Shown: in pieces, positions 26,151 through 43,332 of the stretch | Numbering within the stretch: the first letter of the stretch is position 1 | Layout of the letters: every line of letters begins with the position of its first letter | Origin: Roseateles sp. | Lineage (GTDB): Bacteria; Pseudomonadota; Gammaproteobacteria; Burkholderiales; Burkholderiaceae_C | Reading direction: 5' to 3' | Length of the DNA: 47,678 nucleotides | Assembly (NCBI GenBank): GCA_015657635.1 | Contig: JACDQM010000013.1 | Coordinates: forward strand, 1-47,678 | The notes under the pieces: model-generated | The model's database searches: none | Seen by the model: the letters and a program-made list of their open reading frames with translations, nothing else | What the model was told of the DNA's origin: nothing | Program-made: the position numbers and the translations under genes

Positions 26151-26399
26151 CATTTTCTGCATCGTAGGCGGCGCGCATCAGCCTGAGCGCATCTTGCGAT
26201 GCTGGGCGGTTGCCCGCCCGCGCGCCTCCCTCCTCCCTCCTGCATCCTCGTCTACGCCTCCGAGTAGAGTTCCGGCCTTCGTCAGGGTTTTCCCGCCCGC
26301 TAGTCTCTTTCGTCTGGGCGAATATTCGGGCATAGTGATATTTGGCTGAGCACTGCAAAGCATGCTGTGCATTTGCATCGACGCTTCGGGGCTGAGTGC

Positions 26400-26433
26400 G
26401 ATCCTGCAAGTCGGTTCTGTCGATCCTGCGAGT
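26400..26433 (+). repeat. Direct repeat upstream of soxC
   Basis: GATCCTGCAAGT (26400-26411) and GATCCTGCGAGT (26422-26433) differ at one base and are 22 bases apart start to start, about two helical turns. They could be tandem protein-binding sites controlling the sox operon, ending 31 bases before the soxC start. Confidence 0.4.
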
Positions 26434-26464
26434 GTTGGCTCAGCGACAAATGGAAGGAGACTCC

Positions 26465-27841
26465 GTGAGTTCAGAAACAAAACCTTCGGGCCGCCTGATC
26501 AAGGCGCCCGAGTCGTTCCTCGACCAGGCCGGCATTCGGAAGGTTGTTGCGGAAGCGAAGGCAGGGCGCCGTGGCTTCATGCGAAGCGCGTTCGCTGCAG
26601 CGACTGCGGCGGCAGCCGCGCCGGCGGTGTTGGCCACATCGAATCCATTGCAGGCCGGCGGTGGTGACCCGAATATTCTTGAGTTGCCCGAGCACACCAA
26701 GGGCCTTGGCCAGCCGGTGGTCACCGATGGCTACGGAAAGCCTTCCAAGTACGAAGTGAATGTGCAGCGTCGGCAGAGCCCGGGCTTGACACAGACCACC
26801 CAGGCTTCGGTGTCCTTTGCCCCGCTGCAATCGCTGTTCGGCATCGTGACGCCAAGCGGCCTGCACTTCGAGCGGCATCACCAGGGCTGGTGGGACATCG
26901 ACCCGTCCAAGCATCGCTTGATGGTCAACGGATCCGATTCGTCGATGCTGAAGAAGGCGTTGGTGCTGACGATGGACGAGCTGATGCGCTTGCCTTCCCA
27001 GTCGCGTTTCCATTTCATCGAGTGCGGTGCCAACACCGGCATGGAATGGGGCAATGTGGCTGTGCCGACCGTGCAGTACAGCCACGGCATGCTCAGTTGC
27101 TGCGAGTTCACCGGCGTACCGCTGCGCATCCTGCTGGACATGGCTGGCGTCGACTACAAGCGTGCGCGCTTCGTGCTGGCAGAAGGGGCTGACGGCTCGT
27201 CGATGACACGGACCATCCCGATGGAGATGGTCGAGAACGGCGAAGTGCTGGTGGCCTACGGCCAGAACGGAGAAATGCTCCGCCCTGAAAATGGCTACCC
27301 CTTGCGCCTGGTCGTGCCCGGTGTGCAGGGCGTCTCCTGGGTCAAGTACCTGCGGCGCATCGAAGTGGGGGACAAGCCCTATGGCGCCAAGGATGAGGCG
27401 ATTCACTACATCGACCTGATGCCCAGCGGCCTGCATCGCCAGTACACCAATATCCAGGAATGCAAGAGCGTTGTGACCACGCCCTCGGGCGGTCAGGTGC
27501 TGCTGGACAAGGGCTTCTACAACATCAGCGGGCTGGCCTGGTCCGGACGCGGCGCCATCAAGCGCGTCGATGTTTCCGTGGATGGAGGGCGTAACTGGCG
27601 CACTGCACGTCTGGAAGGCCGTCCGATGAGCAAGTGTCTGACGCGCTTCAACATCGATTGGGTCTGGGACGGCAAGCCGGCCCTGATCCAGAGTCGCGCG
27701 ATGGACGACACCGGTTATGTGCAGCCGACCTACGCGCAGCTGCGCAAGGTGCGTGGCACGCGTTCGATTTATCACAACAATGCGATCCAGTCCTGGCTCG
27801 TGCAGGAAGACGGTGAGGTCAAGAATGTTCAGCTCTCTTAA
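26465..27841 (+). CDS. soxC: Sulfane dehydrogenase molybdopterin subunit SoxC
   Basis: Molybdenum subunit of SoxCD, which oxidises the sulfane sulfur bound to SoxY and yields six electrons; periplasmic, 458 residues. GTG at 26465 is chosen because AAGGAG lies five bases before it. A Tat signal is present (GRRGFMRSAF with twin arginines at 35-36, then an alanine-rich core). The sulfite-oxidase-type Mo domain includes FHFIECGANTGMEW with the Mo-ligand Cys187 and HGMLSCCEFTGVPLR; the C-terminal dimerisation domain follows (YNISGLAWSGRGAIKRVDVS). soxD overlaps its end by 17 bases, fitting their obligate complex. First gene of the sox operon here. Confidence 0.95.
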   Translation: MSSETKPSGRLIKAPESFLDQAGIRKVVAEAKAGRRGFMRSAFAAATAAAAAPAVLATSNPLQAGGGDPNILELPEHTKGLGQPVVTDGYGKPSKYEVNVQRRQSPGLTQTTQASVSFAPLQSLFGIVTPSGLHFERHHQGWWDIDPSKHRLMVNGSDSSMLKKALVLTMDELMRLPSQSRFHFIECGANTGMEWGNVAVPTVQYSHGMLSCCEFTGVPLRILLDMAGVDYKRARFVLAEGADGSSMTRTIPMEMVENGEVLVAYGQNGEMLRPENGYPLRLVVPGVQGVSWVKYLRRIEVGDKPYGAKDEAIHYIDLMPSGLHRQYTNIQECKSVVTTPSGGQVLLDKGFYNISGLAWSGRGAIKRVDVSVDGGRNWRTARLEGRPMSKCLTRFNIDWVWDGKPALIQSRAMDDTGYVQPTYAQLRKVRGTRSIYHNNAIQSWLVQEDGEVKNVQLS

Positions 27842-28907
27842 GCCCTCAAGCATGCGTGCCTTGCTGGCCCTGGTGCTGAGCTGCTCAGCAGGCGCCGCGC
27901 TGGCTCAGGCCAACAACTTCCCCGGCATCGGACGTGCCGCAACACCTAAGGAAATTGCGGCTTGGGACATCGATGTGCGCCCGGACTTCAAGGGCCTGCC
28001 CAAGGGGGCCGGCTCTGTGGCGCTGGGCCAGGAGGTGTGGGAGGGCAAGTGTGCACACTGCCACGGCATCTTTGGCGAAAGCGGTGAGGTGTTTTCGCCG
28101 CTTGTCGGCGGCACCACGGCGGAAGACATCAAGACCGGCCGGGTCGCGCGTCTGACCGACGCCAGCTTCCCGGGTCGCACCACCTTGATGAAGGTGCCGA
28201 CGGTGTCGACGCTGTTCGACTACATCAATCGTGCGATGCCGTGGAATGCGCCAAAGTCCCTGAGCGTGGACGAGGTGTATGGCGTGACCGCGTTCCTGCT
28301 CAACCTCGGTGGCATCCTGCCTGACAACTACGTGATGTCGGACAAGAACATCGCCGAGGTCCAGCAGCGCATGCCCAACCGCAATGGCATGACGCTGGAC
28401 CACGCCATGTGGCCCGGCAAGGGGCTGACCACGGCCAAGGCACCGGACACCCGCAACACGGCTTGCATGACGAACTGCGACACGGGCGCGAAGATCAGTT
28501 CCTTCCTGCCTGACTACGCACGCAATGCGCACGGCAATCTGGCCGAGCAATCGCGCAGTGTGGGCGCGCAGCACGGCGTCGACACGACCAAGCCGGTTGG
28601 CGTGCCGGCCAAACGCGATGTGGCGCCTGCCAAGCCTGCCGAGCCGGCCAAGCCGAATGCAGCTGCGCTGCTGAACAAGTACAGTTGCACCGCATGTCAC
28701 GCCGCCGATGCAAAGCTGGTCGGCCCGTCCTTCAAGGAGATTGCCAAGAAGTATGGTGAGCGCGCTGATGCCGTGGCCTACCTGACCGGCAAGATCAGGG
28801 CGGGTGGTGTGGGCGTCTGGGGTCCGATTCCGATGCCGGCTCAGTCTCTGGGCGAAGCGGACGCCGCGCTGCTCGCGCAATGGTTCAAGAGCGGAGCCTC
28901 GCGTTAA
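27825..28907 (+). CDS. soxD: Diheme cytochrome c subunit SoxD
   Basis: Electron-accepting subunit of the SoxCD sulfane dehydrogenase; 360 residues from ATG 27825, which has GAGG six bases before it (ATG 27852, MRALLALV, is an alternative). A Sec signal peptide ends near ALAQA. Two haem sites are visible: CAHCH at 76-80 and CTACH at 288-292. The linker is proline/lysine/alanine-rich (PAKPAEPAKP), and an extra ACMTNC pair sits at 214-218. Both domains are complete, as in the two-haem SoxD of facultative lithoautotrophs. The presence of soxCD predicts complete thiosulfate oxidation to sulfate without sulfur globules. Confidence 0.94.
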   Translation: MFSSLKPSSMRALLALVLSCSAGAALAQANNFPGIGRAATPKEIAAWDIDVRPDFKGLPKGAGSVALGQEVWEGKCAHCHGIFGESGEVFSPLVGGTTAEDIKTGRVARLTDASFPGRTTLMKVPTVSTLFDYINRAMPWNAPKSLSVDEVYGVTAFLLNLGGILPDNYVMSDKNIAEVQQRMPNRNGMTLDHAMWPGKGLTTAKAPDTRNTACMTNCDTGAKISSFLPDYARNAHGNLAEQSRSVGAQHGVDTTKPVGVPAKRDVAPAKPAEPAKPNAAALLNKYSCTACHAADAKLVGPSFKEIAKKYGERADAVAYLTGKIRAGGVGVWGPIPMPAQSLGEADAALLAQWFKSGASR

Positions 28908-28996
28908 GCCTGCGGCGCGTGGTCCTGAAATACGGGATGACACGTATGGTGCGCCTGTATCCTTTTATTAGCATGGAGTGAACAAGGAGACTTCCC

Positions 28997-29467
28997 ATGA
29001 TCGCAAATCGTCGACAGGTTCTTAAGCAGAGCGCCACCGTGGCCTCCCTGATGGTGGCATCTGGTGTGTTGGGCCCCCTGGCTCACGCCGCTGGCGCTGC
29101 TGCTGGCAAGGGCGCCTTTGACGCCAAGACCATGGCCGATCTGGTCAAGGCTCTGGGTTACGGTGCGCCCACCGAAAGCAAGGATGTCAGCATCACTGCA
29201 CCTGACATCGCCGAGAACGGCGCCGTGGTGCCTCTGGGTGCCACCACCACACTGGCTGGCGTCAAGCAGGTCATGCTGCTGGTTGAGAAGAACCCGTCCG
29301 TGCTGGCTGCGCTGTTCAACGTGACGCCCGAGGTTGACGCGAGTTTCTCGACGCGCGTCAAGATGGGCCAGTCGTCCAACGTCTTCGCGGTGGCGGTGAC
29401 CAATGACAACAAGGTTCTGTTCGCGCAGAAGGAAGTCAAGGTCACCTTGGGTGGTTGCGGCGGCTGA
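28997..29467 (+). CDS. soxY: Sulfur carrier protein SoxY
   Basis: Periplasmic carrier to which sulfur intermediates are bound during Sox oxidation; 156 residues. A Tat-type signal (IANRRQVLKQS, twin arginine at 5-6, hydrophobic core, cleavage near AHAA) takes it out folded with SoxZ. The immunoglobulin-like core (about 40-145) ends in the swinging arm GGCGG with the substrate cysteine Cys154, the diagnostic tail. AAGGAG stands nine bases before the ATG. It is followed after 86 bp by soxZ, its partner. Confidence 0.96.
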   Translation: MIANRRQVLKQSATVASLMVASGVLGPLAHAAGAAAGKGAFDAKTMADLVKALGYGAPTESKDVSITAPDIAENGAVVPLGATTTLAGVKQVMLLVEKNPSVLAALFNVTPEVDASFSTRVKMGQSSNVFAVAVTNDNKVLFAQKEVKVTLGGCGG

Positions 29468-29553
29468 TCCCGCAAAGATCCGGTGTCAACGCAAACTCAG
29501 CTAAGCATTCAATCGAGCCGGACCTCAAGCGGTTCGCTCACAAGGAGATAAAA

Positions 29554-29865
29554 ATGGCAGATCCGATGCGCATTCGCGCTCAAGCCGCTGGCGACAAGGC
29601 AACCGTTCGTGTGCTGATGGCGCATGAGATGGAAAGCGGTCAGCGCAAGGACTCGGCAGGCAAGACCATTCCTGCCTGGTTCATCAGTGAAGTCAGCGCC
29701 TCGCTCAATGGCAAGGTGGTGATGACTGCGGAGTGGGGACCTTCGGTGTCCAAGAACCCCTTCCTGCAGTTCGCCATCAAGGGCGCCAAGGCCGGTGACA
29801 AGGTCTCGGTCACCTGGACCGACAACAAGGGTGAGAAGCGCACCGACGAGGCTGCGGTTTCCTGA
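29554..29865 (+). CDS. soxZ: Thiosulfate oxidation carrier partner SoxZ
   Basis: Partner of SoxY in the SoxYZ carrier, 103 residues, no signal of its own (it is exported with SoxY by hitchhiking, by family knowledge). The typical start MADPMRIRAQAAGDKATVRV, VLMAHEMESGQRKD and VSVTWTDNKGEKRTDEA are visible. AAGGAG at 29542-29547 fixes ATG 29554. Soon after the stop comes a 20-bp palindrome that may act as a weak terminator or mRNA-stabilising hairpin before soxA. Confidence 0.95.
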   Translation: MADPMRIRAQAAGDKATVRVLMAHEMESGQRKDSAGKTIPAWFISEVSASLNGKVVMTAEWGPSVSKNPFLQFAIKGAKAGDKVSVTWTDNKGEKRTDEAAVS

Positions 29866-29889
29866 GATTGTTGTTTGTAGATTGGAGTG

Positions 29890-29909
29890 CCGGCCCGCAT
29901 GCGGGCCGG
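29890..29909 (+). terminator. Perfect 20-bp palindrome between soxZ and soxA
   Basis: CCGGCCCGCATGCGGGCCGG reads the same on both strands, forming a strong ten-base hairpin followed by TCCCTATTTG, so only a poor T tract. It may partly stop transcription or protect the 3' end of the soxCDYZ message. Confidence 0.5.
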
Positions 29910-29977
29910 TCCCTATTTGTGCTCTCGTGCACAGACCTTATCTTTTGAGCCCAGACAATTAAAACAGGAGACGGTGT

Positions 29978-30778
29978 ATGAAGCTACTCAAGGTCCTTCT
30001 GGCCATTAGCTGCGCGTTGCCGCTGTCGATGGCTCAGGCCCAGAAAAGTGCGGCTGACGGCATCGCGGAATACCGTGCGCTGCTGGCCGATGGCAATCCG
30101 GCCGAGTTGTTTGAAGCCAAGGGCGAGGGCATTTGGAAGACCAAACGCGGGCCGAAGAAGGCGTCGCTTGAAGCCTGTGATCTGGGCAAGGGGCCTGGTG
30201 TCGTCAAAGGGGTTTTTGTCGAGTTGCCACGCTGGTTCAAGGACACGCAGCGGGTACAGGACTTGGAATCTCGCCTGCTGACCTGCATGGAAACTCTGCA
30301 GGGTCTGGATGCAGCGGCGATTGCGAAGACGCCTTTTGGCCGCGGTGAGCAGGCCAATATGGAGGCGCTGGCCGCCTGGATCTCGGCTGAGTCGCGTGGC
30401 ATGAAGATGAACCTGTCGCAGGGCCATGCGGACGAGCGTCGGATGTACGAACTGGGCAAACGAGCCTTCTTCTACCGCGGTGGTCCGATGGATTTCTCCT
30501 GCGCCTCCTGCCATGGCGAGGAGGGCAAGCGGATCCGCCTGCAGGACCTGCCGATCCTGACCAAGAATCCGGGTGACGGTGTTGGCTTCGCTGCCTGGCC
30601 GGCCTACCGGGTGTCCAGCGGAGAGATGTGGAGCATGCAGCGCCGCCTGAACGACTGCTTCCGTCAGCAACGCTTTCCTTACCCAGGCTTTGCTTCGGAT
30701 GTGACGATCGCTCTGGCCGTCTACATGGGCGTCAACGCCAAGGGTGCCGAGTCGATTGCACCGGCCATCAAGCGCTGA
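29978..30778 (+). CDS. soxA: L-cysteine S-thiosulfotransferase subunit SoxA (monohaem)
   Basis: Catalytic subunit of SoxAX, which couples thiosulfate to the SoxY cysteine; 266 residues, periplasmic with a Sec signal (LKVLLAISCALPLSMAQA). One haem site, CASCH at 175-179, is present. The first haem site of diheme SoxA proteins is missing: Cys67 and Cys103 remain, probably as a disulfide, as in monohaem SoxA. The active cysteine is Cys227 in RRLNDCFRQQRFPYPG, which carries a persulfide in known structures. AGGAGA precedes the ATG. soxX follows after 7 bp. Confidence 0.95.
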   Translation: MKLLKVLLAISCALPLSMAQAQKSAADGIAEYRALLADGNPAELFEAKGEGIWKTKRGPKKASLEACDLGKGPGVVKGVFVELPRWFKDTQRVQDLESRLLTCMETLQGLDAAAIAKTPFGRGEQANMEALAAWISAESRGMKMNLSQGHADERRMYELGKRAFFYRGGPMDFSCASCHGEEGKRIRLQDLPILTKNPGDGVGFAAWPAYRVSSGEMWSMQRRLNDCFRQQRFPYPGFASDVTIALAVYMGVNAKGAESIAPAIKR

Positions 30779-30785
30779 AGGAGAC

Positions 30786-31439
30786 ATGATGCGAAAGACA
30801 ACCATTGCAGCAGCGGCCAGCATTGCCGCCGTCGCCTTGACGCTGGCGGGATGCGCCGTCGGACCCAGCCCCGCTGAGCTCGATGCCCAGGCCGCGGCGA
30901 TGATGAAGGCCTCGTTCCGCGACGAGGGCATTGCGACGATGAAGCGGCTTGACCAGGACCTGGGGCAGCAAGCCTGCTCGTCCGACAAGCAGCCCAGTGA
31001 AGCGGTCGCGAAGAAGATCGAAGAAGAATCCATGGCCACGATCCGCTGGCCTGCCGGCGGCCAGTACATCGGCGACTGGCGCGAGGGCGAGAGGCTGGCG
31101 CAGAACGGTCGCGGCATGACCTGGACTGACCGCTCTGCGGCAGCCAGTGCCAACGGCGGCAATTGCTACAACTGCCATCAGATCAGCAAGGAAGAGATCT
31201 CCTTCGGCACCATCGGGCCCAGCCTCTACAACTACGGCAAGATCCGTGGCGTGAAGGATGTCGCCGACCCCGCAACGGCTGCCATCGTGCAGTACACCTG
31301 GGGCAAGCTGTGGAATTCCAAGGCTTACAGCGCCTGCTCCAACATGCCGCGCTTCGGCCATGCCGGACTGCTGGATGAGACGCAGCTGCGTCACATCATG
31401 GCGCTGCTGCTGGACCCGAAGTCACCGGTCAACCAATAA
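30786..31439 (+). CDS. soxX: Cytochrome subunit SoxX, predicted lipoprotein
   Basis: Electron-transfer subunit of SoxAX; 217 residues from ATG 30786, with GAAGGAG just before it (a second ATG follows at 30789). The N-terminus MMRKTTIAAAASIAAVALTL runs into AGC, a lipobox, so it is predicted to be acylated at Cys23 and membrane-tethered. The haem site is CYNCH at 127-131; FGTIGPSLYNYGKIRG and SACSNMPRFGHAGLL follow, with Met187 the likely axial ligand. Cys64 and Cys184 may form a disulfide. The order A-X is that of the soxCDYZAXB type. A UUCG terminator follows. Confidence 0.93.
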   Translation: MMRKTTIAAAASIAAVALTLAGCAVGPSPAELDAQAAAMMKASFRDEGIATMKRLDQDLGQQACSSDKQPSEAVAKKIEEESMATIRWPAGGQYIGDWREGERLAQNGRGMTWTDRSAAASANGGNCYNCHQISKEEISFGTIGPSLYNYGKIRGVKDVADPATAAIVQYTWGKLWNSKAYSACSNMPRFGHAGLLDETQLRHIMALLLDPKSPVNQ

Positions 31440-31451
31440 CCAGTCGCCACC

Positions 31452-31475
31452 AGCCCGCTTCGGCGGGCTTTGTTT
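31452..31475 (+). terminator. UUCG-loop terminator between soxX and soxB
   Basis: AGCCCGC (31452-31458) pairs with GCGGGCT (31463-31469) around TTCG and runs into TTTGTTT. It stands 12 bases after soxX and 27 bases before the soxB ATG, so it would act as an attenuator if soxB lacks its own promoter. Confidence 0.75.
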
Positions 31476-31502
31476 GAAGTTAAACATAAGCGAGCACTTA
31501 TC

Positions 31503-33236
31503 ATGAATCTCAGCAAGCGCGAATTTCTGCAGGTCATGTCGGCCGCCTCGGTGGCGGGCATGGGGCTGGGGCGTTATGCCGACGCCGACGCCGCGACGGC
31601 CGAGCAAGGCTTGTACGACTTGCCCCGCTTCGGGCAAGTGTCCTTCCTGCACATGACCGACTGCCATGCGCAGCTCAAGCCGATCTACTTCCGCGAGCCC
31701 AATGTGAACCTGGGCATCGCCGGCATGCAGGGCAACACGCCGCATGTGGTCGGCGAGAAGCTGCTCAAGAGCATCGGCGTGCGTCCGGGCACGGCACAAG
31801 CCCATGCCTACACCTATATCGACTTCGAGCGCGCCGCGCGCCGCTACGGCAAGGTGGGTGGTTTTGCGCATCTCTCCACGCTGGTCAAGCGTATGAAGGC
31901 GAGCCGTCCGGGCGCCTTGCTGCTTGACGGCGGTGACACCTGGCAGGGCTCCGCCACCTCGCTGTGGACGAATGCCCAGGACATGGTTGACGCCTGCAAG
32001 CTGCTGGGCGTGGACGTGATGACCGGCCACTGGGAGTTCACCTATGGCATGGAGCGGGTCAAGGAAATCCTGGAGAAGGACTTCAAGGGCAAGCTTGACT
32101 TCGTGGCGCAGAACGTCAAGACCAACGACTTCGGTGACCAGGTGTTCAGCCCCTATGTCATCCGCGAAATCAACGGCGTGAAGTGCGCCATCATCGGCCA
32201 GGCCTTCCCGTACACGCCAATCGCCAATCCGCGCCATATGGTGGCGGACTGGGCCTTCGGCATCCAGGACGAGAACATGCAGGCCATGGTCGACGAGGCG
32301 CGCGGCAAGGGCGCCAAGGTCGTCGTGGTGATCTCGCATAACGGCATGGATGTTGACCTCAAGATGGCCTCGCGCGTGCGCGGCATTGACGCCATCATGG
32401 GTGGCCACACGCATGACGGCGTGCCGGTGCCGGTGCTGGTCCAGAACGCAGGCGGCAAGACCATCGTTACGAATGCGGGCAGCAATGGCAAGTTCCTGGG
32501 GGTGCTGGACTTCGAGCTCAAGGACGGCCGCGTCAGCGACTTCCGCTACAAGCTGATGCCCATCTTCTCGAACATGCTGAAGGCCGATCCGGAGATGGAC
32601 GCGCTGATCAACAAGATCCGCGCGCCCTACGAGTCCAAGCTGTCGGAGAAGCTGGCCATCACCGACGGCCTGCTGTATCGGCGCGGCAATTTCAACGGCA
32701 GCTGGGACCAGTTGCTGGTGGATGCGCTGATGGATGTGCAGGGCGCGGACATTGCCTTCTCGCCAGGCTTCCGCTGGGGCACCAGCCTGCTGCCTGGCGA
32801 TGTGATCACGCGTGAGTTGATGATGGATCAGGTCGCCACCACCTACTCCTACGCGACCGTCACCGAGATGAGCGGTGCGACCATCAAGACCGTGCTCGAG
32901 GATGTCTGCGACAACCTGTTCAACCCCGACCCCTACTACCAGCAAGGCGGCGACATGGTGCGCGTCGGCGGCCTGACCTATGCGTGCGAGCCAGGTGCGG
33001 GCATGGGCCGGCGCATCCAGGACATGCGCTTGAACGGCAAGCCGATCGAGGCCGGCAAGAACTACCGTGTGGCCGGCTGGGCGCCGGTGGCTGAAGAAGC
33101 TGCCAGCATGCCCGGTACCCGCATGGTGTGGGATGTGGTCGAGCAGTGGCTCAAGTCCAAGGGCCGCGTCACGCCGCGCAAGATCAACACACCGCGCCTG
33201 ATCGGCGTGAGCGGCAATCCGGGCATCGTGCTCTGA
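31503..33236 (+). CDS. soxB: Thiosulfohydrolase SoxB
   Basis: Dimanganese hydrolase that releases sulfate from SoxY-bound thiosulfate; 577 residues, periplasmic. The N-terminus SKREFLQVMSAASVAGMGL is a Tat signal in which the usual RR is KR. The metallophosphoesterase domain carries FLHMTDCHAQ (Asp53, His55), LLDGGDTWQGS, GHWEFTYG, VVISHNGMD and GGHTHDG as metal ligands; the 5'-nucleotidase-like C-terminal domain follows (DALMDVQGADIAFSPGFRWG). It is separated from soxX by a terminator-like hairpin. Functional part of the seven-gene sox set. Confidence 0.96.
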   Translation: MNLSKREFLQVMSAASVAGMGLGRYADADAATAEQGLYDLPRFGQVSFLHMTDCHAQLKPIYFREPNVNLGIAGMQGNTPHVVGEKLLKSIGVRPGTAQAHAYTYIDFERAARRYGKVGGFAHLSTLVKRMKASRPGALLLDGGDTWQGSATSLWTNAQDMVDACKLLGVDVMTGHWEFTYGMERVKEILEKDFKGKLDFVAQNVKTNDFGDQVFSPYVIREINGVKCAIIGQAFPYTPIANPRHMVADWAFGIQDENMQAMVDEARGKGAKVVVVISHNGMDVDLKMASRVRGIDAIMGGHTHDGVPVPVLVQNAGGKTIVTNAGSNGKFLGVLDFELKDGRVSDFRYKLMPIFSNMLKADPEMDALINKIRAPYESKLSEKLAITDGLLYRRGNFNGSWDQLLVDALMDVQGADIAFSPGFRWGTSLLPGDVITRELMMDQVATTYSYATVTEMSGATIKTVLEDVCDNLFNPDPYYQQGGDMVRVGGLTYACEPGAGMGRRIQDMRLNGKPIEAGKNYRVAGWAPVAEEAASMPGTRMVWDVVEQWLKSKGRVTPRKINTPRLIGVSGNPGIVL

Positions 33237-33291
33237 TCCGCCCCCGGACTTTCCTTTCAAAGCAAGGGAAAGTACCCGGCACACAGTGCTT

Positions 33292-33315
33292 GTAGGGCCG
33301 CGGGAGCGGCCCTAC
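33292..33315 (+). terminator. Hairpin after soxB
   Basis: GTAGGGCCGC and GCGGCCCTAC form a perfect ten-base stem with a GGGA loop, followed by TATTGCTC rather than a T tract. It probably ends the soxB transcript, perhaps with help from Rho. Confidence 0.55.
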
Positions 33316-33331
33316 TATTGCTCAACACTTA

Positions 33332-33355
33332 AGAAAGTTTGATATCAAATTTTCT
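33332..33355. promoter_or_regulatory. 24-bp near-perfect palindrome, probable ArsR operator
   Basis: AGAAAG (33332-33337), TTTGATATCAAA (33338-33349, perfect) and TTTTCT (33350-33355) form a 24-bp inverted repeat with a single mismatched pair. It ends eight bases before the ArsR ATG. TTGCTC (33318-33323) and GATATC (33341-33346) are 17 bases apart, so the palindrome would cover the -10 and block transcription when bound. Confidence 0.7.
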
Positions 33356-33363
33356 AGAACGTA

Positions 33364-33786
33364 ATGAGCGACAAACGCACGCAAGCCCACCCCCAGGCCA
33401 GCACCGAGCCCGCTGCCGATGCTGCTGTGACCCGGCCCGATGTGGCCGAGATGCGCCGGCACGCGGCCGAGGCTACGGCGCTGCTCAAGGCGATGGGCAA
33501 TGAAGACCGGCTGCTGATCCTGTGCACGCTCAGCCAGGGCGAGATGACGGTGGGCGATCTTGAGGCCCGCACCCAGATTCATCAGCCCACCTTGTCGCAG
33601 CAACTCACGGTGCTGCGGGCGCAAGGCATGGTCTGCTGCCGACGCGAAGGCCGGCACGCTTTCTATTCGGTCTGCAGCCCTGCGGCGCTGGCCACCATCG
33701 ACACGCTCTACGGCCTCTTCTGCGCTCGCAGCGGCACGTGCACGCCGCCTGCGCTGAGCAAGGGTCGGGGGAGGGCGCCCAAGTGA
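33364..33786 (+). CDS. ArsR-family repressor, SqrR/BigR-like persulfide sensor
   Basis: Winged-helix repressor of 140 residues, with an N-terminal extension of about 30 residues rich in Ala and charged residues. The ArsR domain is at about 33-125: LLKAMGNEDRLLILCTLSQG, then IHQPTLSQQLTVLRAQGMV as the recognition helix. Cys54 (second helix) and Cys120 (last helix) are 66 residues apart, the same spacing as the Cys41/Cys107 pair of SqrR, which forms a polysulfide bridge with sulfane sulfur and releases DNA. No metal-binding CVC motif of ArsR is present. It probably represses itself and the genes downstream; persulfide sensing is inferred. Other cysteines: 91, 92, 104, 126. Confidence 0.85.
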   Translation: MSDKRTQAHPQASTEPAADAAVTRPDVAEMRRHAAEATALLKAMGNEDRLLILCTLSQGEMTVGDLEARTQIHQPTLSQQLTVLRAQGMVCCRREGRHAFYSVCSPAALATIDTLYGLFCARSGTCTPPALSKGRGRAPK

Positions 33787-33889
33787 GCTAGACCGAGCCC
33801 CACCCGGCCGCGAGAGCCCCTTGCGGCGGGGTCATCAACGCTAGCCGCGCATCGAACGACGGCAGCGCAACTACAACCGGAGACAAAAC

Positions 33890-35194
33890 ATGAAACGACT
33901 GACAGCAGTCGCTGTGGCGACGCTCGCCCTGCCTTTTTGTGCACAAGCCACCAATGGCATGCTGCTGGAGGGCTACGGGCCGATCAGCGCGGCCATGGGT
34001 GGGGCCGCGACGGCGGTCGAAAACGGCCTTGCCGCCGCCGCCAACAACCCAGCAACGCTGGGGCTGCAGACCGCGGGCGCTCGCCTGGATCTCGCCATCG
34101 GCCACCTCGGGCCGCGAGTGTCTTCAAGTGCCGGGCCCATGGTGGCGGATTCGGGCGGGCGCGCCTACGTGATGCCCGCCATGGGCTACGCGCGGCGCAA
34201 TGGCGATCTCACCTATGGCGTGGCCATGTTCGCCCAAGGCGGCATGGGCACCGAGTACGCGTCCAACAGCTTCCTTGCGATGGGTTCGGGCAAGGAGGTG
34301 CGCTCAGAGCTTGGCGTTGGGCGACTCATCCTGCCGCTGGCCTGGCAGGCCAGCCCGGATCTGGTGATCGGCGGCTCGGTGGATCTGGTGTGGTCGACCC
34401 TCGACCTGCAAATGGCGGCGTCCGGCGCCCAGCTCGGCCAGATGGTGACTGGAGCGGGCGGCAATCTCGCGATGGCCTTGCCGGCACTGGGCGGTGCTCC
34501 GTGGGCGCGCATTGACTTCAGTGACGGCAGCAGCTTCTCTGGCGAAGCCTTCTCGACTGGCTTCGCAGCCAAGCTCGGACTGATCTACAAGGCGTCGCCG
34601 ACGCTCACGCTGGGTGCAAGCTGGCACAGCAAGACTTCGCTGCGCGACATGAAGACGGGCAAGAACGCGGCCTCGCTGAGTGCCTTCGGTGGCTTTGCTG
34701 ATGCCGGCCAACTGACGGTGCAGGACTTCCAGATGCCGCAGCAGTTTGCGCTGGGCCTGGGCTGGCAAGCCACGCCAGAGCTGCTGTTTGCGCTGGATGT
34801 GAAGCACGTCGCCTGGTCTGACGTGATGCAGTCCTTCAAGATGCGCTACGTCAGTTCGGGCATGGGCGGTGAAGTGAGCTTCGCACTGCCACAGCAGTGG
34901 CGCGATCAGACTGTGACGGCGATGGGCGTGGCATGGAAGGCGACCCCGGCGCTGACGCTGCGCGCGGGCTACAACTCGGACTCGAACCCCATCCCGGACA
35001 GCACGGTGAACCCGCTGTTCCCGGCCACGATTCGAAAGCACTACAGCCTGGGCTTCGGCTACGAGCTGTCGGAGCGCTCGGGCATCAGCGCCGCGATCAC
35101 CAAGGCGCCAAAGGTCACGGTGCAGTCCGGCTCCGGAGTCTCGATCAGCCACAGCCAGCTGAATGCGCAGCTGATGTTCAGCCAGAGCTTCTGA
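33890..35194 (+). CDS. OmpP1/FadL/TodX-family outer membrane channel
   Basis: Outer-membrane beta-barrel of the FadL type, which passes hydrophobic molecules; 434 residues with a signal peptide (MKRLTAVAVATLALPFCAQA). The N-terminal plug signature GYGPISAAMGGAATAVENG and NNPATLGL are typical; beta-strands continue to the final aromatic FSQSF. Ribosome site GGAGA precedes the ATG at 33890. It lies 103 bp after the ArsR gene and 42 bp before the DUF302 lipoprotein, probably in one unit. Substrate unknown; the sulfur setting suggests hydrophobic sulfur species or an unrelated compound, which is speculation. Confidence 0.85.
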   Translation: MKRLTAVAVATLALPFCAQATNGMLLEGYGPISAAMGGAATAVENGLAAAANNPATLGLQTAGARLDLAIGHLGPRVSSSAGPMVADSGGRAYVMPAMGYARRNGDLTYGVAMFAQGGMGTEYASNSFLAMGSGKEVRSELGVGRLILPLAWQASPDLVIGGSVDLVWSTLDLQMAASGAQLGQMVTGAGGNLAMALPALGGAPWARIDFSDGSSFSGEAFSTGFAAKLGLIYKASPTLTLGASWHSKTSLRDMKTGKNAASLSAFGGFADAGQLTVQDFQMPQQFALGLGWQATPELLFALDVKHVAWSDVMQSFKMRYVSSGMGGEVSFALPQQWRDQTVTAMGVAWKATPALTLRAGYNSDSNPIPDSTVNPLFPATIRKHYSLGFGYELSERSGISAAITKAPKVTVQSGSGVSISHSQLNAQLMFSQSF

Positions 35195-35236
35195 ATTCCT
35201 CAGCCACTTTTTTAGCTCAAATAGCAGGAAATTCTC

Positions 35237-35815
35237 ATGAACGGATTTAAGACATCGATCATCCGAGTTATCTCGGTGGCGCTGCTGGGCGCAGCACTGA
35301 CCGGTTGCGGCACGGTTGCGACCATGGGCAAGCTCGAAGACGGGGCCGCCGCCGAGGCTGGCCGGATGTGGGACCGCTGGGTCGACAGCGGTGGCGACAT
35401 TGCCGTGGCCACCACCTGGGAGCGCAAGGTCAAGCCGGGCGTCACTCTGGACCAGATCGAGCAGGCGCTGGCCAGCGTCGCCACCGAGATGAATATTCGG
35501 CCTGTGGGCGAGTTGCCGCTGTCAAAGGAGTTGGAGGCGCGCAGCGGCAAGCCGGAGCGGCTGCTGAAGGTCTACAACTACTGCAACCCCCAGACCGCGC
35601 GCAAGATGGTCGACTTCTCGCCGCATATGGCGGCCTATCTGCCCTGCCGCATCAGCATCGTCGAGCAGGCCGACGGCCTGTGGCTCTATACGCTCAATAT
35701 GGACATGATGATCAAGATGGGCCGCAAGCTGCCACCTGATCTGAAGGCCGACGCCACCAAGGTGCGCGATGCCATCTGGATGATGATGGAAAAGGGCTCG
35801 TCAGGCGATTTCTGA
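35237..35815 (+). CDS. DUF302-domain lipoprotein
   Basis: Predicted lipoprotein of 192 residues with lipobox ALTGC (Cys24). The DUF302 domain covers roughly 85-175: YNYCNPQTARKM, then the conserved AYLPCRISIVEQADGLWLYT, which hold the two cysteines usual in this family. AGGAAA precedes the ATG. It follows the FadL-like gene by 42 bp and ends before a bidirectional terminator. DUF302 proteins are often found near sulfur-oxidation and YeeE/YedE genes, but their biochemical role is not settled; a part in handling sulfane sulfur at the outer membrane is an inference. Confidence 0.85.
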   Translation: MNGFKTSIIRVISVALLGAALTGCGTVATMGKLEDGAAAEAGRMWDRWVDSGGDIAVATTWERKVKPGVTLDQIEQALASVATEMNIRPVGELPLSKELEARSGKPERLLKVYNYCNPQTARKMVDFSPHMAAYLPCRISIVEQADGLWLYTLNMDMMIKMGRKLPPDLKADATKVRDAIWMMMEKGSSGDF

Positions 35816-35848
35816 GCCGCTGCCCTTTGATGGCCGCTGTGAAGCAGG

Positions 35849-35870
35849 AGCGGGCCGAAAGGCCCGCTTT
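35849..35870. terminator. Terminator between DUF302 and DsrE-like genes
   Basis: AGCGGGCC (35849-35856) and GGCCCGCT (35861-35868) form an eight-base stem with a GAAA loop, followed by TTTC. Located between convergent genes, it can serve both. Confidence 0.8.
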
Positions 35871-35887
35871 CAATACGGACGCCAGCG

Positions 35888-36331
35888 TCAGGGCTTGAGG
35901 TAGACGAAGCTCTCGCGTGCCTGCAGCTTGCTGACCTCGGCGACGCCGGACGGCACCACCTTGGCCTCCATCACCACGCGGTCAGCAGGGATCTTGCGGG
36001 AGACCAGGGTGTTGTTGCAGACGCGGAACTCGACACCGCGGCCGGACAACTCGCCGATGGCGCCCGCGAAAGGCTGGCCCGCCGCGTTCTCGGCACCATC
36101 GAGCAGGAAGTCGATGCCCGGGCCATGCGTCACGACGATGATCTTGGTCTTCGGCTCGGCGTTCAGGTGGTTGCGGATGTTGCCGATGGCTCTTGACGCT
36201 TGCTGCACACCTTCGCTCAGGTGATAGACCACCTTGATGCCGGCATCGTCCGCTTGCGCAGCGCTGGCCGCCGCGAGACCGAAGGTGGCGGCCAGCAGGC
36301 CGCGCAAGTGAAATCGTCGGGTGTTTGACAT
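35888..36331 (-). CDS. Periplasmic DsrE/DsrF-like protein
   Basis: DsrE-family protein of 147 residues with a signal peptide (SNTRRFHLRGLLAATFGL, then cleavage near AAQA). GAGGAG six bases before ATG 36331 fixes the start. The domain shows IKVVYHLSEG, KIIVVTHGPGIDFLLDGA and FRVCNNTLVSRKI, the last with the conserved cysteine near the active site of this family, and ends QARESFVYLKP. Cytosolic DsrE proteins move persulfide sulfur; this exported form probably binds sulfur in the periplasm, which is inferred. Divergent from the YeeE/YedE transporter. Confidence 0.85.
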   Translation of the reverse strand: MSNTRRFHLRGLLAATFGLAAASAAQADDAGIKVVYHLSEGVQQASRAIGNIRNHLNAEPKTKIIVVTHGPGIDFLLDGAENAAGQPFAGAIGELSGRGVEFRVCNNTLVSRKIPADRVVMEAKVVPSGVAEVSKLQARESFVYLKP

Positions 36332-36384
36332 ACATCGCTCCTCAACCGGATGTCCGGGGTGTAAATTAGCCATTGCGCATACTG

Positions 36385-36402
36385 GGATTTAATGCCAAAT
36401 CC
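36385..36402. promoter_or_regulatory. Inverted repeat in the dsrE-yeeE divergent gap
   Basis: GGATTT (36385-36390) and AAATCC (36397-36402) are perfect complements around six bases. The site lies about midway between the divergent starts (36331 and 36441), where a shared regulator would act. It differs from the ArsR palindrome at 33332, although both are AT-rich. Confidence 0.35.
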
Positions 36403-36440
36403 TGGCGCATGACATACGGGCTTACGCCGACATCACCATC

Positions 36441-37574
36441 ATGCCGATCGAATCCCTCATCGACTCTCTCGGGCAGTCTAAGGCCTTGGCTTTGGGAGGG
36501 CTGTTGATCGGTTTCATGTTCGGCTTCTTCGCCCAGCGCTCGCGATTCTGCCTGCGCTCGGCCACCATCGAGTTCTCGCGCCGAGTGCATGGCGGCAAGT
36601 TGACGGTCTGGCTGTTCGCCTTTGCCATCGCACTGCTGTCGACCCAGGGGCTGATCGCGCTGGGCTGGCTGGATGTCAGCAGCGCGCGGCAGCTGGCCGC
36701 ACGCGGCAGTCTGTCGGGCGCAGCGATCGGCGGCGCGCTGTTCGGCGTCGGCATGATCCTGGCGCGCGGCTGTTCCAGCCGGCTGCTGGTCCTTGCCGCC
36801 CAGGGCAATCTGCGCTCGGTGCTGTCCGGGCTGGTGTTCGCGGTGACGGCCCAGGCTGCCTGGTCGGGCGTGCTCGCGCCCTGGCGCGAACAGATCTCCG
36901 GCTGGTGGACGGTCGAAGGCGGTGCGGCCCGCGATCTGGTTGCGATCAGCGGTCTGGGGCGCACGGGCGCCTTGCTGTTCGGCGCCTTGTGGCTGATCGC
37001 CGCGGTCCGCTGGGCGCGCCATCAGCGCGTGCCCGCCTGGGGCTGGGCCGGGGCAAGCATGGTGGGCCTCAGCATCACGGCTGCCTGGTGGTACACCGGA
37101 ACGGTCGCGGCAGCCGGGCTGGAAGCCGCGGCGGCGCCGGTGCAGAGCCTGAGCTTCACCGGCCCATCGGCCGAAGTGCTGGTGCGCGTGCTGTTCGCAC
37201 CCGACAAGGCGCCGACCTTCGATCTGGGCCTTGTTCCTGGCGTCTTCCTCGGCTCCTTCGTGGCGGCGGCACTGTTCCGTGAACTCAAGCTCGAAGGCTT
37301 TGCGGGCGGGGCCAGCATGCGCCGCTATCTGATCGGCGCCGTGTTGATGGGCTTTGGCGGCATGCTGGCCGGAGGCTGTGCGGTCGGTGCGGGCCTGTCC
37401 GGCGCGGCAGTCTTCACCATCACGTCCTGGGTCACGCTGTCGGCCATGTGGGCCGCTGCAGCGCTGACCGACTGGCTGGTGGACCAACGCGGCGAGCAGC
37501 TCGGTCGGGAAGCGGCACCGGCCGATCAGGCGATGCCCAGCCGGAGCTTTTCAAACCAGGGGCTGCGTCTGTGA
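36441..37574 (+). CDS. YeeE/YedE-family sulfur transporter
   Basis: Inner-membrane protein of the YeeE/YedE (DUF395) family, whose studied members import thiosulfate or other sulfur compounds; 377 residues with about nine hydrophobic helices. Conserved cysteines lie in FAQRSRFCLRSA, LARGCSSRLL and AGGCAVGAGLSG, positions thought to pass the sulfur species along the channel. It may import thiosulfate to the cytosol or move sulfur for assimilation. Divergent from the periplasmic DsrE-like gene, and 82 bp before the SoxH-like gene. Assignment to thiosulfate rather than another thiol is not certain. Confidence 0.87.
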   Translation: MPIESLIDSLGQSKALALGGLLIGFMFGFFAQRSRFCLRSATIEFSRRVHGGKLTVWLFAFAIALLSTQGLIALGWLDVSSARQLAARGSLSGAAIGGALFGVGMILARGCSSRLLVLAAQGNLRSVLSGLVFAVTAQAAWSGVLAPWREQISGWWTVEGGAARDLVAISGLGRTGALLFGALWLIAAVRWARHQRVPAWGWAGASMVGLSITAAWWYTGTVAAAGLEAAAAPVQSLSFTGPSAEVLVRVLFAPDKAPTFDLGLVPGVFLGSFVAAALFRELKLEGFAGGASMRRYLIGAVLMGFGGMLAGGCAVGAGLSGAAVFTITSWVTLSAMWAAAALTDWLVDQRGEQLGREAAPADQAMPSRSFSNQGLRL

Positions 37575-37656
37575 GCCGCGCGGACAGCGCTGAATCGGCG
37601 CAGCAGCGAGTAGCCAGCGCGACGGCAGACGCCGCCGCGCGCCAAGCGAGATAGCG

Positions 37657-38628
37657 ATGACATTCCTCCTCCAATACGCGTTGCGCCGCCAGCGCAGCTT
37701 CGTCACCGCGCTGGCGGTGGCTGCGCTGGCTGCCGTGCAGACGCCCGCAGCACTGGCTCAGAAAGTTCAGGCCGTGCAGGTGGCGCCACAGACCTGGATG
37801 GTGCAGGGCGAGTCCGCGCTGGGCTCGTCCGCGAACCGCAATTTCATCTCGAACGCCGCTTTTGTCGTCACCGACGATGGCGTCGTGGTGGTGGATGCCT
37901 TGGGCTCTCCGGCACTGGCGCAGGAGTTGATGGCAGAAATCCGGCGCATCACACCCAAGCCGATCAAGCACCTGATCATCACGCACTACCACGCCGACCA
38001 TATTTACGGCCTGCAGGAGTTCAAGGCCGCTGGCGTGCAGTTGATCGGCCAGAAGGACGGCCAGCTGTATCTGCACTCCGAGACCGCCGAGTTGCGCCTG
38101 AAGGCCAGCCGCGAGGAGATGTTCCCGTGGATCGACGAGAAGACCCACTTGGTGCCGGCTGACCGCTGGGTGAGCGGGACCACGACACTGCGCCTGGGTG
38201 GGCTGGACTTCGTGCTGCAAGCCGCCGGGCCTGCGCATACGCCGGAGGATCTGGTGGTCTATGTGCCGCAGCTCAAGCTGTTGGTGGCGGGCGACCTGGT
38301 GTTCCGCGGCCGCGTGCCCTTTGTCGGCCAGGCGGACAGTGGCAGCTGGATCGCGGCGCTGGATCGCCTGCTGGCCTTCGACACGGCGGTGGTTGTGCCC
38401 GGCCATGGCCCGGTGTCGATGACGGCCCGCGAAGATCTGCAGCTGACGCGCGACTACCTGGCCTATCTGCGCCAGACGATGGGCAATGCCGCACGCGATC
38501 TGGAGCCTTTCGAGGAGGCCTATGCCAAGACCGACTGGTCCCGCTTCGCCAAGCTGCCGTTGTTCGGCGTGGCCAACCGCATCAATGCCTACAACACCTA
38601 TCTGCTGATGGAACAATCGGGCAAATGA
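37657..38628 (+). CDS. MBL-fold metallo-hydrolase, SoxH-like
   Basis: Exported metallo-beta-lactamase-fold protein of 323 residues. The signal peptide is RSFVTALAVAALAAVQTPAA then LAQ. The zinc motif HYHADH lies at 110-115 (His110, His112, Asp114, His115); further ligands are in AGPAHTPEDLV, AGDLVFRGRVPFVG and VVPGHGPVS. It resembles SoxH, an accessory protein of sox clusters not strictly needed for thiosulfate oxidation, and its relatives near quinoprotein genes. Its end overlaps the thioredoxin gene by four bases (ATGA), so they are probably translationally coupled. Substrate unknown. Confidence 0.83.
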   Translation: MTFLLQYALRRQRSFVTALAVAALAAVQTPAALAQKVQAVQVAPQTWMVQGESALGSSANRNFISNAAFVVTDDGVVVVDALGSPALAQELMAEIRRITPKPIKHLIITHYHADHIYGLQEFKAAGVQLIGQKDGQLYLHSETAELRLKASREEMFPWIDEKTHLVPADRWVSGTTTLRLGGLDFVLQAAGPAHTPEDLVVYVPQLKLLVAGDLVFRGRVPFVGQADSGSWIAALDRLLAFDTAVVVPGHGPVSMTAREDLQLTRDYLAYLRQTMGNAARDLEPFEEAYAKTDWSRFAKLPLFGVANRINAYNTYLLMEQSGK

Positions 38629-39125
38629 AGCTGCGTCGTCGTGAAGTTCTGCCCGTGCTCGCACTGGCCCCCTGGCTGGGTGCTGCAGAGGCGGCGTCGC
38701 TCGCGCGTGGCGATGCCGTGAGCTGGCCCGGTTCAGTGAGTTTGCTGGACGGCAGCAACTGGTCGGCCGAGCAGTGGCGGGATCGTGCTGCCGTGATCGT
38801 GTTCTGGTCCTTGCACTGCGGCTTTTGCGAGCGCCACAACGTGCATGTCGAAAAACTGCACCGGGCCGCAGCCGGCAGGCGCCTCAGCGTGCTGAGCGTC
38901 GTGGCCGAGCTTGATGCTGACGCGGTGCGGCGGCGCATGGCGCAGCGCGGCTGGACCTTCCCCGTGACCTTGGGCCGCGAGCCGCTCGCCGCGGCGCTGG
39001 GCGCGCGGCGCAGCGTGCCGCTGACTGTCACGGTCGATCGAAAGGGGCGCCTGAGCGAGGCTATCCCGGGCGAGATGTTCGAGGCGGATGTGCTGGATCT
39101 GCTGAAGCTCGCTGCCTCCGCCTGA
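38625..39125 (+). CDS. TlpA/SoxW-like periplasmic thioredoxin
   Basis: Thioredoxin-fold protein of 166 residues. A hydrophobic N-terminal segment after basic residues (KLRRREVLPVLALAPWLGAA) serves as signal or anchor. The active site is CGFC at 65-68 in VIVFWSLHCGFCERH, followed by the cis-proline in RSVPLTVTVDRKG. In sox clusters SoxW thioredoxins keep SoxY and others reduced, with electrons from SoxV; no soxV is in this window. Four-base overlap with the SoxH-like gene supports a shared role. TlpA-type assignment is firm, the SoxW function is an inference. Confidence 0.82.
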   Translation: MKLRRREVLPVLALAPWLGAAEAASLARGDAVSWPGSVSLLDGSNWSAEQWRDRAAVIVFWSLHCGFCERHNVHVEKLHRAAAGRRLSVLSVVAELDADAVRRRMAQRGWTFPVTLGREPLAAALGARRSVPLTVTVDRKGRLSEAIPGEMFEADVLDLLKLAASA

Positions 39126-39246
39126 TTCGCGCCTGGCTTGGCATACGCCGCGTGATCTGCAGGCTTCAGGGCAGCAACGCAACACGCGCCGCAATCAATC
39201 CCTCGTCTCGGTTCCACTTCGGTCTAGTTAGCGCACGGCAGTCAAT

Positions 39247-40821
39247 ATGCTCAACAACTTTCGCATCTCGCAACGCTTCATCGCCATCATGGCGATGTAC
39301 TGGACCACCTTCGGCCTGATGGCCGTGTTGGCGCTGTGGGGCCTCTTTGACGGGGCATCCAGTCTGGAGACAGTGGCCAGCCAGCGCATGGAGCGGGTCA
39401 CGCAGCTCAGCCGTTATTCGCAGAACAATCTGTCCAACCGGGCGGAGGTGCTGCTGGCCTTCCAGCATGCGCCGAGCAGCCCGCTGGCGGCCATCCACGA
39501 GCATGCGGTCGACATGCATCTGCAGGCCATCGACAAGCGCCGCGCCGAGAACGGCGAGATCTGGAAGCGCCTGCGCGAGGATGCCAGCATGGACGCGCCA
39601 GGGCGGGAACTGGTGGCGGAAGCGGAGCGCCGCCGCCAGCTCTGGGCAGCCAAGCTGGAACAGGCGACCCAGGCAGTGCGCCGCGGCGATTATTCAGAGC
39701 CGGTGATGGCCACCTTCCTGAAGGCGGGCCGCGAGGAAGGTCAGGCGCTGTTCGACGCCCTGGCACAGGCCCGCCAACACGAGGAGTCCCAGGCCAAGGC
39801 CGCCGCCGCAGCCGCACAAGGCCGGGCGCGCACGCTGCTGGCCGTGTTCGTCGGCTTCGCGCTGCTGGTCGGCCTGCCTGCGACCTGGATGTTCCTGTCC
39901 CTGCTGATGCGCATCCGCGCTGGCTTTGCCAAGGCGGACGCGCTGTCCACTGCGATTGCCGCCGGGGACTTGAGCCAGTCGGTGCAGGTTGATGGCCGCG
40001 ATGAGATCGGTCATCTGCTGGGCCAGATGGGCCTGATGCGCGAACGTTTGATGGGCTTGATCCGTGAAGTGCGCAGTGCCGCCGATGGCGTGCAGGTGGC
40101 GGCCGACGAAGTGGCCTCGGGCAATATGGACCTGTCCAGCCGTACCGAGCAGACCGCCAGCCAGTTGCAGCAGACGGCCAGCACGACCGACGAACTCAGC
40201 ACCACGGTGCGGCAGAACGCCGATAACGCGCTGCAGGCCAATCAGCTGGCCCAGGGTGCCAGCGAGGTGGCCGGGCGTGGCGGCGCGGTGGTGGGCGAGG
40301 TGGTGACGACGATGCGCGGCATCAACGACAGCAGCCGCAAGATTGCCGACATCATCGGCGTGATCGATGGCATCGCCTTTCAGACCAATATCCTGGCCTT
40401 GAATGCGGCCGTCGAGGCAGCGCGCGCCGGTGAGCAGGGCCGTGGCTTCGCAGTGGTGGCCTCCGAGGTACGCAGCCTGGCACAGCGCAGCGCCGAGGCC
40501 GCGCGCGAGATCAAGACCCTGATCACCGCCAGCGTCGAGCATGTGGAGCAGGGCACCAGCCTGGTCGACCGCGCCGGCAGCACCATGCAGGAGGTGGTGG
40601 ATGCGATCCGCCGCGTCAGCGACATCGTGGCCGAGATCAGCGTCGCCAGCCGCGAGCAGAGCGAAGGTGTCAGCCTGGTCGGCAATGCGATCACGCAGAT
40701 GGACCAGAGCACGCAGCAGAACGCCGCGCTGGTCGAGCAGAGCGCCGCGGCGGCGGCCAGCCTGCGCGAGCAGGCCAATCAGCTGGTGGCTGCGGTGGCA
40801 GGCTTCAAGCTGCCCGGCTGA
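39247..40821 (+). CDS. Methyl-accepting chemotaxis protein
   Basis: Chemoreceptor of 524 residues. TM1 is at about 12-35 and TM2 at about 193-215, enclosing a periplasmic four-helix-bundle-type sensor of about 155 residues; HAMP follows near 215-270 ([20 protein letters not shown]). The signalling tip is [20 protein letters not shown] then [20 protein letters not shown]. It ends FKLPG, without the NWETF receptor-tether pentapeptide. The ligand is unknown; its position between sulfur and CO2-fixation genes might suggest a sulfur-related or redox signal, but nothing in the sensor proves it. Its end overlaps convergent cbbR by 43 bp. Confidence 0.9.
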
Positions 40822-41753: not shown

Positions 41754-41760
41754 TCAGTGA

Positions 41761-43332
<1,572 letters not shown>

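Follow-up and report, generated by a model that had tools for sequence, protein, structure and literature searches.

We analyzed a 47,678-nucleotide stretch of DNA from Roseateles sp. (contig JACDQM010000013.1 of assembly GCA_015657635.1; hereafter the window), in which a group of sox genes is followed by genes for a regulator, an outer-membrane channel, a predicted lipoprotein of the DUF302 family and several further proteins. From 5' to 3', the order is soxC-D-Y-Z-A-X-B, arsR, channel, DUF302 lipoprotein, dsrE (on the opposite strand), yeeE, a SoxH-related hydrolase and a thioredoxin (Table 1). The draft assembly of the source genome comprises 4.6 Mb in 191 contigs, and the nearest named relative that we found is a Methylibium metagenome-assembled genome (MAG), whose DUF302 protein is 94% identical to that of the window. 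An earlier note on this DNA had described the genes from arsR to the thioredoxin as a sulfur module beside sox. Indeed, all seven reading frames are present at the positions it claimed, and the encoded proteins exceed the Pfam cut-offs for ArsR helix-turn-helix, Toluene_X (OMPP1/FadL/TodX), DUF302, DsrE, Sulf_transp, Lactamase_B and Redoxin, respectively. The upstream soxC, soxY, soxZ, soxA, soxX and soxB genes pass the curated NCBIfam cut-offs, and soxD is named by position only, as NCBIfam gave just a weak c551 match. The regulator, the YeeE protein and the hydrolase are of known kinds; the new part is the TodX-like channel together with a Sox-tied DUF302 lipoprotein.

Table 1. Features of the sox-adjacent locus, in window coordinates
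Feature	Position	Strand	Basis
soxC, soxD (by position), soxY, soxZ, soxA, soxX, soxB	26396..33236	+	NCBIfam; SoxD by position
Candidate ArsR operator, 24-bp near-palindrome AGAAAGTTTGATATCAAATTTTCT	33332..33355	.	11/12 pairs
ArsR-family repressor, SqrR/BigR type, C54 and C120	33364..33786	+	Pfam, NCBIfam, structure-sequence alignment
TodX/TbuX-like outer-membrane channel (Toluene_X family)	33890..35194	+	Pfam PF03349, TodX 3brz, model
DUF302 predicted lipoprotein, lipobox LTGC24, conserved C116 and C137	35237..35815	+	Pfam PF03625, alignment, fold
DsrE-like protein, probably exported, C119 in DsrE-family stretch	35888..36373	-	Pfam PF02635, 1l1s match
YeeE/SoxT-like transporter, C37, C111, C313	36441..37574	+	Pfam PF04143, 6leo alignment
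SoxH-related metallo-beta-lactamase-fold hydrolase, HYHADH motif (by eye)	37657..38628	+	TIGR04559 below cut-off, Lactamase_B
TlpA/ResA-like thioredoxin, CGFC (C65, C68)	38625..39125	+	Redoxin/AhpC-TSA

The channel and DUF302 lipoprotein as a conserved pair

The most conserved unit of the locus is the channel plus the DUF302 gene, not the whole gene list. Among 80 loci (the best 80 of 119 confirmed DUF302 relatives, some of them cut by contig ends), a channel gene adjoins the DUF302 gene on the same strand in 72, with 19–207 bp between the matches; it lies downstream in 66 and upstream in 6. YeeE is found in 24 of the 80, DsrE in 21, both together in 20, and an ArsR gene (>100 bits to the profile) in only 4. 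The order ArsR-channel-DUF302-DsrE-YeeE-metallo-beta-lactamase occurs solely in L003, L004 and L005, with an adjoining TlpA in L003 only. The neighborhood comparison proposed in the earlier note bears out above all the linkage of channel and DUF302, and the note's view of the channel and the lipoprotein as parts without an assigned job holds up; they form a conserved, Sox-associated pair. Its view of one regulated set headed by ArsR does not; the scarcity of ArsR and the single operator-like site in the window (see below) led us to reject the seven-gene list as one conserved ArsR regulon.

In a family-level sample of 200 genomes, a channel adjoins DUF302 in 15 of the 16 high-scoring loci other than that of the window, but 12 of these 15 (L151-L165), and also L085, repeat records already among the 80, so that the two sets are not independent. 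Among 61 DUF302 genes from the order- and class-level samples, a channel lies beside 4 of the 6 that are lipidated and none of the 55 that are not, a pattern suggesting that lipid anchor and adjacent channel go together. The lipobox rule used here failed to flag 20 of 80 genes in which the aligned Cys is present; among the 61 distant genes, its result is the same as that of the aligned column (6). Ten proteins neighboring class-level DUF302 genes gave no sulfur-related Pfam match; their matches are ParA-like, dynamin-like, AcrB-like, TPR, DUF1538, CBS and integrase.

Other arrangements were noted as well. At L063 (5916-13917) the genes flanking the pair encode a multicopper oxidase, a DUF4395 protein and an oxidoreductase whose SQR match is below cut-off; an ArsR gene with 66-spaced cysteines lies ∼3.7 kb upstream, and the flanks hold no sox genes. 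In two Undibacterium loci (L019, L027) the two genes are at opposite ends of one sox cluster, the channel at that of soxB and DUF302, which is divergent, at that of soxC. At L017 (8578-9818), from reading of the DNA alone, DUF302 comes after a rhodanese-like gene and two small genes resembling those of c-type cytochromes.

The channel scores 122 bits to the Pfam model Toluene_X (PF03349, cut-off 29.7), and in a PDB search it matches TodX (3brz, 2.4e-58), TbuX (7.2e-55) and CymD (3e-41) along almost the entire protein, while E. coli FadL is absent from its PDB matches at E 0.01 or better; a mixed profile (A2) does reach E. coli FadL, at ∼1e-21. Similarly, the predicted model (mean predicted local distance difference test, pLDDT, 87.4) superposes on TodX with template modeling (TM) scores of 0.85/0.89 at 32% identity, and in the fold search the E. 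coli FadL entries (TM 0.64–0.74 by query length) rank after TodX, TbuX and CymD. The diverged partner channels of L016 (33% identical) and L112 (25%), from two other groups, likewise match TodX best. For these two and the channel of the window, the best solved relatives are TodX, TbuX and CymD (TbuX is not listed for L016). By domain and predicted fold, we therefore place the channel in the TodX branch of the FadL superfamily; the FadL-type channel of the earlier note stands at the level of the superfamily, but specifically as a TodX/TbuX/CymD-like protein and not as the E. coli type. The designation ‘long-chain fatty acid’ channel was rejected for the same reasons. The genome carries two Toluene_X genes, the second of which scores 314 bits and is on a different contig.

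The DUF302 protein scores 46.7 bits to PF03625 (cut-off 23), and its model (pLDDT 80.6) has the fold of 1q9u and 1j3m, both titled uncharacterized or hypothetical. The lipobox Cys24, Cys116 and Cys137 are common to the window protein and 33 homologues (alignment A1), many of which probably also overlap the 80 loci. Of 98 rows, drawn from the 80 loci and 18 family-sample genes (two sets that overlap), every one has both Cys116 and Cys137, and 96 have Cys24, which is missing only from two low-scoring genes. Even in 64 more distant rows, Cys116 is found in 62 and Cys137 in 63, and the misses are pieces of one broken gene. Gly follows the lipid Cys in 95 of the 96 rows that have it; the exception (L166) has Asp, and Asp in this position is the classical inner-membrane signal. 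That gene, from the family sample, is a DUF302 paralogue with an LAGCDV lipobox near SoxY- and SoxZ-like genes, and is the sole lipidated gene of the sample without a channel. At L109 (8999-10460), two diverged DUF302 genes adjoin each other on opposite strands, and just one of them has an aligned lipobox Cys; the genome of the window itself has a second DUF302 gene elsewhere (L001, G000:C32:14384-14575), which at 97 bits to the Pfam model scores above that of the window.

Co-occurrence of DUF302 with SoxB

By tblastn, which we used for counting sox genes because SoxD-profile hits of ∼134 bits near DUF302 are probably other cytochromes, 57 of the 80 loci have sox genes in their flanks. The genomes of 16 of the other 23 loci were searched for SoxB; it is present in full in 13, as a fragment at a contig end in 2, and absent from 1. 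The remaining seven (L015, L028, L034, L040, L050, L072, L078), with little flanking sequence, were left out.

DUF302 and SoxB were also counted in genomes sampled at three taxonomic levels. A DUF302 match occurs in 18 of the 200 genomes of the family sample, 17 of which have SoxB. In the order sample it occurs in 22 of 200 genomes, all 22 of which have SoxB (an overlap read by eye), compared to 97 of the 200 overall. In a sample of the window's class it occurs in 57 of 229 genomes, 53 of them with SoxB. The association is complete for a higher-scoring DUF302 type (116 bits or more, a threshold set after seeing the hit list), which is present in 37 of the 229 class genomes, from 27 families counted by hand; all 37 have SoxB, compared to a base of 94 of 229 (P value 3e-17; this and all other enrichment P values ignore kinship). 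In a few of the genes at or above 116 bits the alignment begins only at residue 48-54, and internal stop codons interrupt two (G257, G345).

We rejected autotrophy alone as a full explanation of the DUF302-SoxB link, because among genomes with RuBisCO the higher-scoring type is present in 35 of the 81 that have SoxB and in none of the 36 that do not. RuBisCO does raise the frequency of this type within SoxB genomes (35/81 versus 2/13, P value 0.05), as it does for all DUF302 hits (50/81 with RuBisCO versus 3/13 without, P value 0.01). The co-occurrence with SoxB across samples ties DUF302 to Sox even away from the sox genes.

The regulator and the other neighboring genes

The ArsR-family protein has Cys54 and Cys120, 66 residues apart, both of which align with the two cysteines of 13ct/6o8l, which is titled ArsR family and which we take to be SqrR; the two are also in register with both cysteines of BigR (3pqj), the biofilm growth-associated repressor. 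Thus, the alignment did not fail, and the SqrR/BigR-like spacing noticed earlier is confirmed. The score of 95.9 bits is below the 155-bit cut-off of the BigR equivalog (NF040642), and therefore we file the protein as SqrR/BigR/SoxR type rather than as BigR itself; its assignment to the two-cysteine SqrR/BigR type is supported by sequence. The shared cysteine pair of SoxR and its relatives is described as forming a sulfur bridge (PMC12423496).

The near-palindrome of the earlier note is present upstream of arsR, but its location over the gene's own -10 is unsupported, since no sigma-70 promoter match was found across 33150-39300. Four comparable 24-mers occur in the whole window, compared to 0–2 in each of 20 Markov shuffles. 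In the related loci L003, L004 and L005 the palindrome is largely kept (10/12 pairs), and the stretch GAAAGTTTGATATCAA of the region is identical across three relatives. Its core, TTTGATATCAAA, is single in the window even with two mismatches allowed, and on those terms is not found again before yeeE/dsrE or soxC. With a single operator-like site, the sequence supports control only of the arsR-channel-DUF302 unit: ArsR control of this unit is likely, whereas control of sox, yeeE or dsrE is not supported. Many loci (e.g. L010:4576-4947, L013:5125-5460) carry a second, low-scoring ArsR-like gene in the interval from the channel to soxC, mostly with cysteines 59 apart rather than 66.

The DsrE-like protein matches MTH1491 (1l1s) at 2.8e-9, with C119 in the same column as a Cys of that protein, and is probably exported, based on a leader peptide read by eye. 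In the YeeE protein, C37, C111 and C313 align with all three cysteines of the TsuA-type structure 6leo; it scores 91.6 bits against the 400-bit cut-off of the TsuA equivalog (NF052577), and because it is below the TsuA cut-offs we do not file it as TsuA. Similarly, the SoxH-like hydrolase of the earlier note is indeed a Lactamase_B protein related to SoxH, but at 188.4 bits it does not reach the 280-bit cut-off of TIGR04559 (SoxH/quinoprotein-relay hydrolase 2), and thus we call it SoxH-related only. Directly after the thioredoxin, window positions 39247-43332 hold genes for a chemoreceptor, a CbbR-like regulator and the RuBisCO large subunit.

A possible entry route for sulfur and its alternatives

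The reading that we prefer, plausible although short of probable, is that the channel and the DUF302 protein, both predicted to be in the outer membrane, bring in zero-valent sulfur in hydrophobic form (S8 or polysulfanes) and hand it over, as a cysteine-bound species, to Sox in the periplasm. In its favor are the adjacency of the two genes, the co-occurrence of DUF302 with SoxB also among RuBisCO genomes, the TodX type of the channel, the conservation of C116 and C137, and the channel beside most of the lipidated but none of the unlipidated order- and class-level forms. The lipoprotein would sit on the inner face of the outer membrane beside the channel, a location that the lipobox and the Gly after the lipid Cys suggest; the channel would pass small hydrophobic sulfur species, as TodX passes toluene; and C116, C137 or both would break open the sulfur chain, hold it and donate sulfane sulfur to SoxYZ. 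Some sulfur might enter the cytosol by way of YeeE, possibly assisted by the DsrE-like protein, and there ArsR would leave its operator once C54 and C120 are bridged by sulfur, as published for SoxR and relatives. YeeE would then serve cytosolic import or signaling, as published for SoxT (PMC11582611). In a broader version, which seems to us possible but doubtful, the pair would serve specifically to admit elemental sulfur across the outer membrane, with S8 or long polysulfanes entering by the channel and the lipoprotein splitting them at its two cysteines to load Sox; such DUF302 proteins in general would carry sulfane sulfur in the periplasm of Sox bacteria.

Several observations weigh against import of sulfur by the pair. 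Eight of the 80 loci, including one truncated by a contig end, have no adjacent channel, and at class level (40 loci, representing 41 of the 70 places with DUF302 hits in the class sample) a channel is adjacent in only two, L111 and L112, whose neighbors are not sulfur genes; those scanned include a 2-hydroxyacid dehydrogenase, an epimerase and, in L112, also an HMG-CoA reductase. The aligned lipobox Cys24 is found in just 6 of the 64 more distant rows, so that most class-level forms are without it, and in 19 of the 96 rows with the lipid Cys the residue at -3 is T, A or G, which makes for a weak lipobox. Both of the other cysteines are also present in Thermus TT1751 (1j3m, E 0.046), and thus the cysteine pair is not a Sox hallmark. 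The best fold match of the DUF302 model by Z score is 7tj1, titled putative fluoride transporter CrcB, a title that we presume to be a wrong label. One MAG (G201, identical to G497) carries the pair without SoxB, and four genomes of the class sample have a lower-scoring DUF302 hit and no SoxB. Since the Sox system here includes SoxC, it may leave no sulfur globules for re-import. Finally, the homology to TodX would equally suggest an aromatic or organosulfur cargo.

If that last point is followed, the channel would import small hydrophobic organics (aromatics, or methylated or cyclic organosulfur compounds), maybe feeding sulfide or thiosulfate to Sox, with the lipoprotein as a helper. The closest solved relatives, TodX, TbuX and CymD, are titled toluene or monoaromatic channels, but none of the 20 window proteins scanned matches an aromatic or organosulfur catabolic family, and DUF302 tracks SoxB genomes across families; we consider this reading unlikely. 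A different role for DUF302 comes from the literature, where the gene is described in sox clusters with its function unknown and a speculation on trithionate (PMC5037610, PMC5248467). The protein would be a periplasmic enzyme acting on polythionates, such as a trithionate hydrolase, and the channel a chance or general neighbor. That speculation (PMC5037610) concerns DUF302 between soxA and soxB, and L146 has this arrangement. The window type of DUF302, on the other hand, lies beside a channel in 72 of 80 loci, and the titles of the three solved DUF302-fold matches name no such enzyme, which is weak evidence; we hold this role to be distinctly improbable. No more probable is that the pair exports or sheds excess hydrophobic sulfur that arises when Sox or sulfide oxidation runs over, protecting the periplasm under ArsR control: the window ArsR is of persulfide-sensor type and BigR-type regulators elsewhere control detoxification, but the relatives of TodX are import channels and just 4 of the 80 loci retain ArsR along with the pair.

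Import of zero-valent sulfur by the pair bears on a question stated elsewhere. Membrane proteins for S0 transport lack experimental confirmation, with OprD-type porins as candidates in other systems, and the outer-membrane crossing of water-insoluble sulfur is stated to be unresolved (PMC10045233, 2023); a conserved two-gene, Sox-associated candidate makes this question testable. Likewise, the DUF302 domain gains a function hypothesis with two named residues, C116 and C137. In Sulfitobacter, soxF and soxH enclose a DUF302 gene, which in some strains is accompanied by a YeeE/YedE gene (PMC11034169); DUF302 has been termed a sox operon protein (PMC10512742), and a DUF302 gene has been described as resembling one of the Synechocystis sqr operon (PMC5061849). 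In the literature searched, which took in few subscription papers, we found no publication that joins DUF302 to a FadL/TodX channel.

Each part of the locus can be set beside a known system. The YeeE protein is like SoxT and TsuA in its three conserved cysteines, and its gene, as described for SoxT (PMC11582611), lies near a SoxR-like gene, but it differs in scoring below the TsuA cut-offs and in being divergent from the DsrE-like gene. The ArsR protein resembles the SoxR, SqrR and BigR repressors in its two aligned cysteines, 66 apart, and differs in that its gene is placed with the channel and DUF302. The channel is like the monoaromatic channels TodX, TbuX and CymD in sequence over nearly the full length and in predicted fold; TodX and TbuX belong to hydrocarbon operons, whereas the setting here is sox and DUF302. 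Finally, like the sox-cluster DUF302 genes described for Acidithiobacillia and Sulfitobacter, that of the window is in or near sox and of unknown function, but it encodes a predicted lipoprotein, is paired with a TodX-like channel gene and lies outside the soxA-soxB interval.

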